Shown in pieces: positions 27,532-62,500 of a DNA stretch of 64,000 nt; position 1 is the stretch's first letter; each line of letters begins with the position of its first letter. The notes beneath the pieces are model-generated. The model was not told where the DNA came from. It made no database searches and saw only the letters and a program-made list of their open reading frames with translations. The stretch is from Candidatus Methylacidiphilales bacterium (GTDB lineage: Bacteria > Verrucomicrobiota > Verrucomicrobiia > Methylacidiphilales > JAAUTS01): positions 1 through 64,000 of the forward strand of contig JAQTNW010000008.1 of NCBI GenBank assembly GCA_028713655.1, given 5' to 3'. Made by a program: the position numbers and the translations under genes.

Positions 27532-28721
27532 CAATGTGCCGCGGCTTCCAGATATAGCTTTTCGTATTCGCCGGCCATTTTACGGATTGAATAGCGCTCT
27601 TGAATTGTCTCCCGCGCTTTGGAACCGATCCGCTGAAAAAGGCCGTCGGCGCCAGCCCAGTCCAAATCCGATGTAAGTTCTATTGAATTATGGGTATCAA
27701 GAAAATCCAGGTCTCTTCTGACTTCCGGGGAAACCGCAGGCGGGAGCCCCGCAGCCATGGCTTCCAAAAGTGAAAATGGCAACCCCTCATACTCAGCAGT
27801 GTGGAAATAAGCATCTGCGGCGGCCAGAAAGGGCCTCAACTCCTCCTGCCAGGGCTCTTGTCCCACGCAATCTTCCATCCGCAATTTCCGTACTTCATCC
27901 CGCCACCGCTCCATCAACGAGCCGGCGCCGAACCGGGTTCCCCGGCCCACCCACCCGAAGGACTTTTCATTCTCACCGCCCACCCACAAAAAGCGGGCGC
28001 GTGGGAAGGACTTTTTTAAACGCGCCGCCTGTTCAAGAAACAGCAATGGGCGCTTTTGTTCGACAAACCGCCCAACTCCAATTACGAGCAGATCATCGGC
28101 TTCGAGTTTCAATTCCACGCGCTTTAAATTTCGGAGTCGCAGGATTTCCTCCTGTGCCGGAACCTCCACGCCATTGGAAACCACTTTGACTGTGTTTTCA
28201 GGGCCGAGAAAGCGCCTGAGTTCCACCGCGCGGCTTTCGTGGACGGTAATATAATTCCCGGAAAAGCGCCGCAGCGCGCGCCGTGCATTCCAATCACGGA
28301 GCCTTCCGCACACAGCGCCCAATGCGGACGGGCTTTGCGTCAGATGAATCGTGCAGACGCCGGGCGTTTTCAAAGTTTTTGCCGCCGCTAATAAATCAAG
28401 CCCGTCCTCGAGGTTTTGTTTGTTGAAATGAATCACATCCGGCTTCCAATCTTCCCAAACCCGGGTAATGCGGCCCGGGATTTTCCTTCCCCATGGAAAT
28501 CCCAGACCCCGAAAACGGCGGTCATAGGTGTTACGGTAGGGACTTCTGAAAACCGTCCCGATTTTTGAGAAAACGGAACAAAGTTCATCCATCCTGGGGT
28601 GCTCCGAGGCCCAGAGCGCCACCTCATGGCCCATTCCCGCGAGGGCCGGACCCAGACGCGCCAGAAATATTTCACCTCCTCCTCTCGAACCTGAACTGCT
28701 GCTGATAAACAAAATTTTCAT
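27531..28721 (-). CDS. GT4-family glycosyltransferase
   Basis: 396 aa from the ATG at 28721, which sits in a 4-nt ATGA overlap with the upstream gene; the open frame beyond it is out of register with that coupling and lacks domain character. Features: MKILFISSSSGSRGGGE (donor-sugar glycine loop), CTIHLTQSPSALG, VGRFVEQKRPLLFLEQAARL and an EX7E motif in EGLPFSLLEAMAAGLP. It resembles group 1 glycosyltransferases of O-antigen and capsule loci. A basic, Trp/Arg-rich stretch after residue 75 may touch the membrane. Confidence 0.88.
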   Translation of the reverse strand: MKILFISSSSGSRGGGEIFLARLGPALAGMGHEVALWASEHPRMDELCSVFSKIGTVFRSPYRNTYDRRFRGLGFPWGRKIPGRITRVWEDWKPDVIHFNKQNLEDGLDLLAAAKTLKTPGVCTIHLTQSPSALGAVCGRLRDWNARRALRRFSGNYITVHESRAVELRRFLGPENTVKVVSNGVEVPAQEEILRLRNLKRVELKLEADDLLVIGVGRFVEQKRPLLFLEQAARLKKSFPRARFLWVGGENEKSFGWVGRGTRFGAGSLMERWRDEVRKLRMEDCVGQEPWQEELRPFLAAADAYFHTAEYEGLPFSLLEAMAAGLPPAVSPEVRRDLDFLDTHNSIELTSDLDWAGADGLFQRIGSKARETIQERYSIRKMAGEYEKLYLEAAAH

Positions 28722-59957: not shown

Positions 59958-61235
59958 TTATAAAAGTTCAAATTTAGACTGCTGTGCAATAATGCCGTGT
60001 ATGGTATTCATGCCCGAATGCCTTTCCGTCCCGGTTTCCAAAATCTCAATTTCAAGCGCTTCTGGCAAATAGTCTTCCAGACCGCGGTCCCGACGGACCC
60101 CCAGTCCAATGTGATAGATGCCAGGCGTGAGGTTCAATTTCGGAAAGCTTACGACTACCGCAAAGACGCCCGGATCAATATTGCCGAAAGAGGTGTTCCA
60201 TGAACTCAATGTTGAGATGATTTCAGTGCCCTCTAAAGTTTTGAGGGACAATCCGAGTTCCATGCCACGAATTTGTTCCTTGGCCTTCATGGTCAACTTC
60301 AAGCTTATGATCGCCCCAAACGACAATTGCCAGGGTTGCGCGCACAGAGATTCGCATAACTCCGCGGATATATACTTTACGGCCCCCGAAAACTCCGAAA
60401 CCCTTTCAAGCTTATCCAGATCAATAATTTTGGAGGCTTTTGTTTTGGCTGCCAAGTAGCGATTCGCGACACTGTGGGGTTCCCCCAGATTTTCAATTTG
60501 CCCATTGTTCATAAGGGCAAGGCGTGAGCAAATTTGCAGCATCACTGTGATATTATGTGAAACAAATAATACGGTGCGCCCATGGCCTCGCGCCAATTCG
60601 CCCATTTTACCCAGGCACTTTTTTTGAAATGCAGAATCACCTACTGCGAGCACTTCATCGACGATCAGGATTTCCGATTCCAAATGCGCCGCAACAGCAA
60701 AGGCCAGACGCACATACATTCCGCTGGAGTAATGTTTTACGGGCGTATCAATAAATTTTTCAACTTCGGAAAAGGCGACAATTTCGTCGAGTTTTTTGTC
60801 CATCTCCCTCTTTTTCATCCCCAGGATCGCCCCGTTCAAATAAATGTTCTCCCGTCCGCTCAAGTCGGGATGAAACCCCGTGCCTACTTCCAACAGCGAG
60901 GCCACACGGCCGCGCAGAATGGCCTCACCGGAGCTCGGCTCGGTGATACGGGACAGGATCTTGAGAAGCGTGGATTTGCCAGCCCCATTCTTCCCGATAA
61001 TGCCCAGCACCTCCCCAGGCTGAACATCAAACGACACGTCGCGAAGCGCCCAGAAGGAAGCTTCGCTGTTCTTGGTTCTTGGTTCTTGGTTCGTAGTTAA
61101 CAAGGAACGAGGAACAAGGAACGAGGAACATTTGTCGAGAAAGCGTTCCACTTCATCGCGCAGGGTGGTCACGCCGATGCTTCCAAGGTTGTAACGCTTG
61201 GAGAGGCCGCGAACTTGAATAATGGGGGAGGTCAC
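59958..61235 (-). CDS. wzt: ABC transporter ATP-binding protein, Wzt-like, with in-frame repeat insertion
   Basis: 425 aa starting at GTG. Walker A GKNGAGKST (81-89), signature YSSGMYVRLAFA (169-180) and Walker B ILIVDEVLAVGD (189-200) are all present. Residues of about 280-425 form the C-terminal Wzt-type carbohydrate-binding domain (SFGAIISLKLTMKAKEQIRG). Partner of the permease upstream, together exporting an undecaprenyl-linked polysaccharide. Residues 36-56 are encoded exactly by a 63-nt inverted heptamer array (61068-61130), giving a sequence that includes TTNQEPRTKN, foreign to the family and lying between the N-terminal strand and Walker A. The frame is kept. A repeat-bounded element sits right before its start and leaves no Shine-Dalgarno. 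Confidence 0.92.
   Translation of the reverse strand: MTSPIIQVRGLSKRYNLGSIGVTTLRDEVERFLDKCSSFLVPRSLLTTNQEPRTKNSEASFWALRDVSFDVQPGEVLGIIGKNGAGKSTLLKILSRITEPSSGEAILRGRVASLLEVGTGFHPDLSGRENIYLNGAILGMKKREMDKKLDEIVAFSEVEKFIDTPVKHYSSGMYVRLAFAVAAHLESEILIVDEVLAVGDSAFQKKCLGKMGELARGHGRTVLFVSHNITVMLQICSRLALMNNGQIENLGEPHSVANRYLAAKTKASKIIDLDKLERVSEFSGAVKYISAELCESLCAQPWQLSFGAIISLKLTMKAKEQIRGMELGLSLKTLEGTEIISTLSSWNTSFGNIDPGVFAVVVSFPKLNLTPGIYHIGLGVRRDRGLEDYLPEALEIEILETGTERHSGMNTIHGIIAQQSKFELL
61068..61130. repeat. Inverted heptamer array inside wzt, no gene
   Basis: GTT plus three CTTGGTT and one CGTAGTT heptamers (61068-61098) are followed at once by the opposite-orientation series AACAAGG, AACGAGG, AACAAGG, AACGAGG, AACA (61099-61130). 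The whole is 63 nt, a multiple of three, and is read through by wzt as 21 codons. Confidence 0.85.
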
Positions 61236-61238
61236 GGG

Positions 61239-61657
61239 GTTCTTAGTTCTTAGTTCTTGGTTCTTGGTTGTTGAGAAAATAGTGAATGAAGCCTCCGATC
61301 TTTAAGGCAGTCTGGTCTGCCAAAGTATAAAGAGCTTCAAACTGCTGTTTCGTGACATAGCCTTGGTCAAGGGCGATATAAAGCTGGCTCTGGACTTCGC
61401 GGCAAGAACGCTGGGCATAGCGCAGGAATTTAACGAACTCCGCGTTGCTGCCGCCGTCAAATCCCTCGGCGATGTTATGCATAACCGAGCCCGCGGCGCG
61501 TTGGATTTGATCCCTGAGTCCAAAATCCTTCGCAAACGCGCTCGTTTTGCCCACGGCATAAATCTGATTTGCAAGCTACCGCCCGAGCTTCCGGCCTTCA
61601 ATTTCCTCAAAACACGTTATTTTCATAGCCAGTAACCAAGAACCACGAACTAAGAAC
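61239..61657. mobile_element. Compact repeat-bounded element carrying a four-helix-bundle gene
   Basis: The left end (61239-61269) is GTT followed by CTTAGTT, CTTAGTT, CTTGGTT, CTTGGTT. The right end (61634-61657) is the inverse: AACCAAG, AACCACG, AACTAAG, AAC. Read inward from each end, both begin with GTTCTTAGTTC and end with GGTTCTTGGTT, so they behave like terminal inverted repeats of about 24-31 nt. Between them lies one gene of the S23/four-helix-bundle family on the minus strand. The unit fills the gap between wzm and wzt: the right end is 6 nt from the wzm stop and the left end is 3 nt from the wzt start. Mobility is inferred from the structure and from the second array copy inside wzt. 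Confidence 0.6.
61243..61626 (-). pseudogene. Four-helix-bundle protein gene (S23/Avd-like) with internal stop
   Basis: From the ATG at 61626 the frame reads MKITCFEEIEGRKLGR, then a TAG, then LANQIYAVGKTSAFAKDFGL and RDQIQRAAGSVMHNIAEGF, EFVKFLRYAQRSCREVQSQL. This is the four-helix-bundle family related to the 23S rRNA intervening-sequence protein and to Avd of diversity-generating retroelements. The expected codon at the stop is probably GAG (ELANQI), so one G-to-T change explains it. A GTG at 61554 would still allow a 103-aa product lacking helix 1. The last eight residues (NQEPRTKN) and the TAA stop are supplied by the heptamer array. Confidence 0.7.
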
Positions 61658-61663
61658 TCCGAA

Positions 61664-62500
61664 TCAGACCGTATCAATAAAATCCCGTTCCACATGCCTG
61701 AACAACAAAAATCCCCCGGCCAAAATCAGCAGCGTCAGTGCCAGCGAAACCACCACCCCTTGCGGTTCGACCGTTCCTGCCCCAAGGAGGATGCGCTTGA
61801 ATCCTTCCACCACCGGTACCATCGGGTTGAACAGCGCCACCCAGCGCCAGCGCTGCGGGATCTGCGACAACGGGTAAATCACCGGCGTGGCATACATCCA
61901 CAATTGCATGAGCAGCCCCAGAGCGTGCATTAAGTCGCGATACCGTGTTGTCAGTGAAGAAACGCACAGCCCGAATCCCAGAGCCAGCGCCGCCGACTGC
62001 AGCAACAGCAACGGCAGAAGAAAAAGGCTTTCATCCCATGCAGACGCCATGCCCTGCATTCGGTAATAGGCGTAAAACACCAGAAACGTCGCCGCTTGGA
62101 TGACAAAGGCGAACAGATTGGATATCAGCACCGAAAGCGGTAAGACCAGCCGGGGGAAATACACCTTGCCGAATATATGTGCGTTGGCTGTAAATGTCCC
62201 CGAAATGCTTCCGGCGCATTGCGAAAAATAGGTCCAGCCCAGCAAACCGCACAGATAAAATAATAGGGGAGGCTGACCGTCCGTGGGTATTTTTGCCACG
62301 TTGCCGAAGACCACCGTGAACATCAACGTCATCAACAAGGGCTGCAGAATGAACCAGAGCGGGCCGAGGATGGTTTGTTTGTATTTGGCTATAAAATCCC
62401 TCCGCACAAGCAGCCACAACAGATCGCGGTATTCCCAAAGCTCGCGCCAGTTGGGAAAGGACCATGAACGCGTCGGGCGGATCAGAATGTTTTGTTCCAT
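61664..62500 (-). CDS. wzm: ABC-2-type polysaccharide export permease (Wzm-like)
   Basis: 278 aa with about six hydrophobic segments. RELWEYRDLLWLLVRRDFIA and KYKQTILGPLWFILQPLLMT are the amphipathic start and first helix of the Wzm/TagG/KpsM permease family; NPMVPVVEGFKRILLGAG lies in the characteristic loop before the last helix, and RHVERDFIDTV closes the protein. It should form the inner-membrane pore for an undecaprenyl-PP-linked polysaccharide, with the Wzt-like ATPase. It lies 4 nt after the upstream membrane-protein gene. The repeat-bounded element begins 6 nt after its stop. Confidence 0.93.
   Translation of the reverse strand: MEQNILIRPTRSWSFPNWRELWEYRDLLWLLVRRDFIAKYKQTILGPLWFILQPLLMTLMFTVVFGNVAKIPTDGQPPLLFYLCGLLGWTYFSQCAGSISGTFTANAHIFGKVYFPRLVLPLSVLISNLFAFVIQAATFLVFYAYYRMQGMASAWDESLFLLPLLLLQSAALALGFGLCVSSLTTRYRDLMHALGLLMQLWMYATPVIYPLSQIPQRWRWVALFNPMVPVVEGFKRILLGAGTVEPQGVVVSLALTLLILAGGFLLFRHVERDFIDTV

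Follow-up and report, generated by a model that had tools for sequence, protein, structure and literature searches.

A probable small mobile element, an S23 gene between inverted heptamer arrays, at a wzm-wzt junction

What is a gene for a small four-helix-bundle protein, enclosed by two oppositely oriented heptamer arrays, doing between wzm and wzt? This arrangement lies in the window, the whole 64,000-nucleotide stretch of DNA from a Candidatus Methylacidiphilales bacterium that we analysed. The protein belongs to the S23/IVP family (PF05635), common proteins that have for decades been listed as having no known function. Published accounts also find heptameric repeats in excess in bacteria, with no accepted cause. 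Our data connect PF05635 proteins, heptameric repeats and rRNA intervening sequences (IVSs).

The element between wzm and wzt

The element, its host genes and a second array nearby occupy these positions in the window:

59958-61235, minus strand: wzt, the host gene downstream of the element (profile matches to ABC_tran and Wzt_C)
61068-61130, no strand assigned: gene-less palindromic heptamer array, in frame inside wzt, encoding SFLVPRSLLTTNQEPRTKN (repeat search, TRF, translation)
61239-61269, plus strand: downstream arm GTTCTTAGTTCTTAGTTCTTGGTTCTTGGTT, the source of the gene's last codons and stop (repeat search, TRF)
61243-61626, minus strand: S23/IVP four-helix-bundle gene (PF05635), with a TAG at 61576-61578 (profile match, translation)
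61634-61663, minus strand: upstream arm in the sense of the gene, inverted heptamer array GAGTTCTTAGTTCGTGGTTCTTGGTT, 30 nt, 90% complementary to 61240-61269 (TRF period 7)
61664-62500, minus strand: wzm, the host gene upstream of the element (profile match to ABC2_membrane)

The element consists of one S23/IVP gene between inverted arrays of about four to five copies of a 7-bp unit (8-bp elsewhere). TRF resolved the array at 61239-61269 (plus strand) into 4.4 copies of GTTCTTA/GTTCTTG units with period 7 and the array at 61634-61657 (minus strand) into 3.4 heptamer copies; as an arm pair, 61240-61269 and 61634-61663 are 30 nt each and 90% complementary. The whole gene matched the PF05635 profile with 102 bits and its open part (61243-61554) with 92.8 bits, where the curated cut-off is 33.8. 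The terminal residues, NNQEPRTKN, and the stop codon are encoded by the array itself. In each of these respects, and in placing the gene between wzm and wzt, the first-pass annotation of this DNA was borne out. Its assignment of the gene to the S23 family also stood, but the gene is not intact: the full reading frame starts with ATG at 61626 and is broken by the TAG, at codon 17, leaving only a 103-amino-acid ORF that starts with GTG and lacks the first helix. Since the TAG is internal, this copy is probably defective or dead.

The natural comparison, as judged by anatomy, is with the rRNA IVSs. The Coxiella 23S-rRNA IVS carries GACAGAT tandem heptamers just before its S23 ORF and has a 28-bp terminal inverted repeat, with excision by RNase III (PMC4990558). 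Like the IVSs of Coxiella and Leptospira, the window element has an S23/IVP ORF in the loop between terminal inverted repeats (with a stem of ~28 bp in the IVSs), and the likeness extends to tandem heptamers beside the ORF, a length of ~430 nt and decaying ORFs (PMC4990558). Its arms are complementary and its transcript is predicted to fold arm to arm (z = -3.8); inverted repeats of this kind bound PF05635 genes generally. Unlike the IVSs, the present elements lie between protein genes, occur many to a genome and have dispersed array families. The window element does not lie in 23S rRNA, as an Rfam search of the window gave no rRNA match, and an rRNA match was found near 0 of 80 sampled S23 elements; an rRNA location was thus rejected. 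As a control on similar DNA, the RNA search found 6 tRNAs in 120 kb. The window element is probably a small mobile element of the rRNA-IVS type that has decayed and is situated outside rRNA.

An inserted element should be missing from related junctions, as the first-pass annotation had anticipated. In the order, wzt adjoins wzm at 10 other loci (L042-L046, L048, L050-L052 and the second wzm-wzt pair of the same genome, L059), and at all of them the two genes were 0-25 nt apart, which makes an empty junction the norm. The count leaves out L055, which has a longer gap. The closest relative, G001, has a different gene after wzm.

Arms and units at PF05635 genes

The expectation that S23 genes are regularly flanked by inverted arrays was tested with a change of method. 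A single fixed heptamer proved too narrow as a search key: the other S23 genes of the same genome have other units, and because the repeat sequence is element-specific, a one-heptamer search would miss the pattern. The revised test looked for inverted arms and periodicity irrespective of sequence, aligning the 200 bp on the upstream side of each gene to the reverse-complemented 200 bp on its downstream side at scores of at least 22 and at least 30. These thresholds are heuristic and were calibrated on swapped-flank, shifted-position and other-gene controls. Genes were sampled as PF05635 hits by best profile score, with one genome per species, mostly MAGs.

A first survey took in 108 PF05635 genes, at 103 loci from the order and the phylum. 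Arms were present at 83% of the genes at the lower score (compared with 6% for swapped flanks and 11% for shifted positions) and at 61% at the higher score (1.3% and 1.7%, respectively). Autocorrelation peaked at lags of 7, 14 and 21 in both close flanks, while farther out codon periodicity alone remained. A genome scan contributed 65 named loci and plasmids another 9, enlarging the set to 184 genes, of which 89% and 73% had arms at the two thresholds, with swapped-flank nulls of 1-2% for strong arms; clear arms were missing at 11-27% of PF05635 genes, depending on the threshold. Among 148 arm pairs the best period was 7 in 112 and 8 in 26, and the median arm length was 33 nt, or 4.4 units. 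Strong arms flanked 70% of PF05635 genes but 5% of other ORFs at the same loci. They were found at none of the toxin-antitoxin (TA) control genes of the same phylum (0/28 HepT and 0/30 PhdYefM), which led us to reject the idea that small mobile genes in general have such arrays. Regular flanking of S23 genes was thus upheld, with strong arms at 70-73% against 0 of 58 control genes, and since the arrangement recurs at most PF05635 genes, the layout in the window is not due to chance.

Flank alignment showed this anatomy around most PF05635 genes in many phyla, with flanked S23 genes in Verrucomicrobiota, Planctomycetota, Chloroflexota, Nitrospirota, Pseudomonadota, Cyanobacteriota, Bacteroidota, Deinococcota and Gemmatimonadota. 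Within the phylum of the window, PF05635 is present in 298 of 388 sampled genomes. Phage records contained no S23 profile match, and carriage by phages was rejected on these grounds. Two annotated plasmid elements with long heptamer arms lie inside operons, one between cas6 and cas4 (Pseudanabaena galeata pPg_01, L314) and one between nrdB and nrdA, the ribonucleotide reductase subunits (Nostoc edaphicum pNe_5, L309). S23 genes were also frequently found in pairs, 2-3 kb apart on one contig (G111:C59, G329:C2, G248:C2, G185:C65, G207:C5 and G075:C8).

Units vary widely among elements (GTTCTTG, AGCTTAA, AGTGGCT, AGGCAAT, GGGGTTAA and others), with a common degenerate rule on the strand of the upstream arm, [T][A/G]G[T][G]N[T/A], that is poor in C and whose G is present in ~90%. 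Comparison of units with proteins showed that the unit sequence tracks the protein subfamily. Nearly the same unit was shared by ~0.5% of pairs below 50% protein identity, by 14% at 60-65% and by 41% at 65-75%, and unit similarity correlated with protein identity (Mantel r 0.35, a value that none of 2000 permutations reached). Relatives of the window protein at 65% identity or more all bear GTTCTTN arms and are spread over several verrucomicrobial orders and Planctomycetes. The two arms of an element were also shown by alignment to agree in unit order: in 86% of 115 elements the match exceeded that of most shuffled unit orders. This agreement implies that the arms were copied from each other and not expanded independently.

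Arrays without a gene and sites that differ between species

Comparison within and between genomes showed that arrays also occur without a gene, in forms that include MITE-like palindromes. The nearest example is the palindrome inside wzt (61068-61130), which the first-pass annotation did not contain: its 63 bp make up 9 heptamers, or 21 codons, in a variable linker before the ABC domain that ranges from ~19 to 28 amino acids among relatives. Its fold is not exceptional (z = -1.0). Elsewhere in the same genome, GTTCTTG-type arrays occur at ~14 other places. The first-pass annotation had proposed to search the genome for an association of this heptamer with other four-helix-bundle genes; none of the other PF05635 genes uses the window heptamer. 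One of these genes has CCCGTAA on one side (L006), one has a different inverted arm pair (L008) and two have no clear arms (L007 and L009). The genome contains further heptamer array families, CCCGTAA, CATGTCA, GCTGAAG and ATCGCCA (L346, L347 and L353), among which CCCGTAA alone was examined for an S23 neighbour. At L076, arrays of the GTTCTTG/CCAAGAA family (739-768, 1287-1369, 1445-1554 and 1885-1911) fall within one glycosyltransferase-like reading frame directly after the S23 element.

In 359 kb of G203, arrays of period 7 numbered 25, compared with between 0 and 8 for most of the other periods and 19 for period 14, a harmonic. Three palindromes of ~108 bp, at 287121, 333911 and 346909 of G203:C10, have heptamer arms, a conserved inner hairpin and unrelated flanks, and by these features are a MITE-like family. 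Copies of the kind expected of MITEs and REPINs, dispersed, gene-less and inverted at their ends amid unrelated flanks, are represented by the three G203 palindromes and the wzt palindrome, with the ~14 arrays of the window's own genome as candidates. Solitary arrays at 28710, 190963 and 213875 of the same contig (L317, L325 and L326) adjoin GCGTTCCCG...CGGGAACGC hairpins that resemble terminators.

Cross-species alignment showed that sites vary: they may be filled, gene-less, empty apart from a scar or occupied by another element, although the comparison is unpolarised. At the atpA-atpG junction of genus g40, five species carry the element; in G442 the junction holds a short stretch in which remnants of the outer units can be recognised. 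Between G445 and G229 the flanks of this junction are 94-95% identical, but identity falls to 67% in the element gene and the arms are not the same, pointing to a different element at the same place. In genus g5, three species have the element at one intergenic site; in G040 it is reduced to AAGGGATTAATCCCTT, and the versions of G025 and G441 lack the gene or are shorter. At this site in G043 (L222 400-1728, G043:C45), a toxin-antitoxin pair, MntA and HepT, lies between the same inverted octamer arrays, and G016 has the same pair (L223, G016:C19). Thus, the S23 gene is not the sole possible content of such arrays. No target-site duplication was recognised at the examined junctions.

How such elements might spread

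A mechanism that accommodates these results would begin with pairing of the arms, within a transcript or within one strand of DNA, so that the gene lies in the loop of a long stem. In RNA, the stem may be cut by RNase III, as in rRNA IVSs; such cutting would make an insertion between co-transcribed genes tolerable. The S23 protein, a pentamer in its Xanthomonas homologue, could recognise its own arms of ~33 nt, perhaps with one unit per subunit. XCC0516 of Xanthomonas (PDB 2GSC) forms a ring of five four-helix bundles (cited in PMC4990558), and the intact homologue L076 matched this structure with E 2.5e-11. The putative match between five 7-nt units per arm and a five-bundle ring is attractive. 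The hairpin might be copied or excised by host enzymes or by a trans-acting nuclease, and solitary arrays and gene-less palindromes would then be non-autonomous derivatives or scars.

On the best reading of the shared anatomy, rRNA IVSs would be one niche of a broader element class. We tentatively extend this to a joint proposal, which we hold to be slightly short of an even bet: that there is a bacteria-wide class of mobile elements lacking a transposase, that at each end of the hairpin the S23 pentamer recognises its own units (about five of 7 or 8 nt, or some one for each subunit) and drives the spread of the element, that rRNA IVSs are one special niche of the class and that many dispersed bacterial heptamers are its non-autonomous offspring. 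The proposal predicts that each S23 protein should recognise the repeat beside its own gene. If true, very small elements that encode no transposase would have a new way of spreading.

As first noted from the letters alone, the element has no transposase and no visible means of movement, and this still holds, with no helper identified and no dedicated nuclease linked to it. Avd of the diversity-generating retroelements has a related four-helix-bundle pentamer fold. Unlike in Avd systems, no reverse transcriptase was detected in the window's own genome and no TR/VR pair is known. Because the RVT_1 profile found no match in this 95% complete genome, a reverse-transcriptase route within it is unsupported, and we rejected such a helper there; the adjacent reverse transcriptase that, with template and variable repeats, marks these retroelements was likewise not detected.

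A different way of moving would be classical transposition, with a trans-acting transposase of the Y1/HUH or RAYT type recognising the hairpins and the S23 gene as cargo or accessory. The genome encodes four Y1_Tnp proteins (although none of their genes is linked to the element), REPIN-like gene-less palindromes exist, and one and the same set of octamer arrays can bound an MntA-HepT pair. As with REPIN/RAYT systems and MITEs, short dispersed palindromes go with a cognate protein family and have gene-less derivatives. Unlike in REPIN/RAYT systems, the S23 protein is no transposase and the arms are tandem 7- or 8-mers, not GTAG-tagged REPs. Moreover, the specificity of the arms for PF05635 genes, set against their absence from the TA controls, together with a unit that follows the S23 subfamily, suggests that it is the S23 protein, and not an unrelated transposase, that matches the arms. 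We regard the passenger explanation as unlikely.

Less likely again is that nothing moves, and that the arrays are a structural or regulatory stem (a terminator, mRNA stabiliser or insulator) of a vertically inherited S23 gene, with complementarity kept by selection. Such a stem would account for arms that are complementary and in register, for the good predicted fold of the window transcript and for orthologous elements that persist in five species at atpA-atpG. It is at odds with empty or scarred sites, gene-less versions and varied contents at one site, with the exchange of an element between nearly identical flanks, with the same pairs of protein and heptamer in different orders and phyla, and with gene-less copies in unrelated flanks.

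Dispersed heptamers have been described before, as 70-75 inverted array pairs in Xanthomonas and as GGGNATC arrays of Xanthomonas and Nostoc that form G-quadruplexes in vitro and were attributed to them (PMC4692102). The present arrays resemble these simple sequence repeats (SSRs) and the cyanobacterial STRRs, being dispersed 7-bp arrays of ~4 units, often in convergent inverted pairs; unlike the SSRs, their units vary with the S23 subfamily and mostly do not form G-quadruplexes. The searched text on the Xanthomonas and Nostoc arrays mentions no S23 or four-helix-bundle link, and among open-access full texts, with few subscription journals or preprints, we found no literature linking heptamer arrays to S23/PF05635 genes in general. 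At least four G3 tracts in an arm were counted in 12 of 125 elements, and G-quadruplexes were rejected as a general cause. That the arrays are ordinary SSRs, made by slippage or kept for G-quadruplexes and next to S23 genes by coincidence, is very improbable: heptameric SSRs are overrepresented in many bacteria and GGGNATC arrays do form G-quadruplexes, but few arms have the G3 tracts, the association is 70% against 0%, both arms share a unit order, and unit identity follows protein identity.
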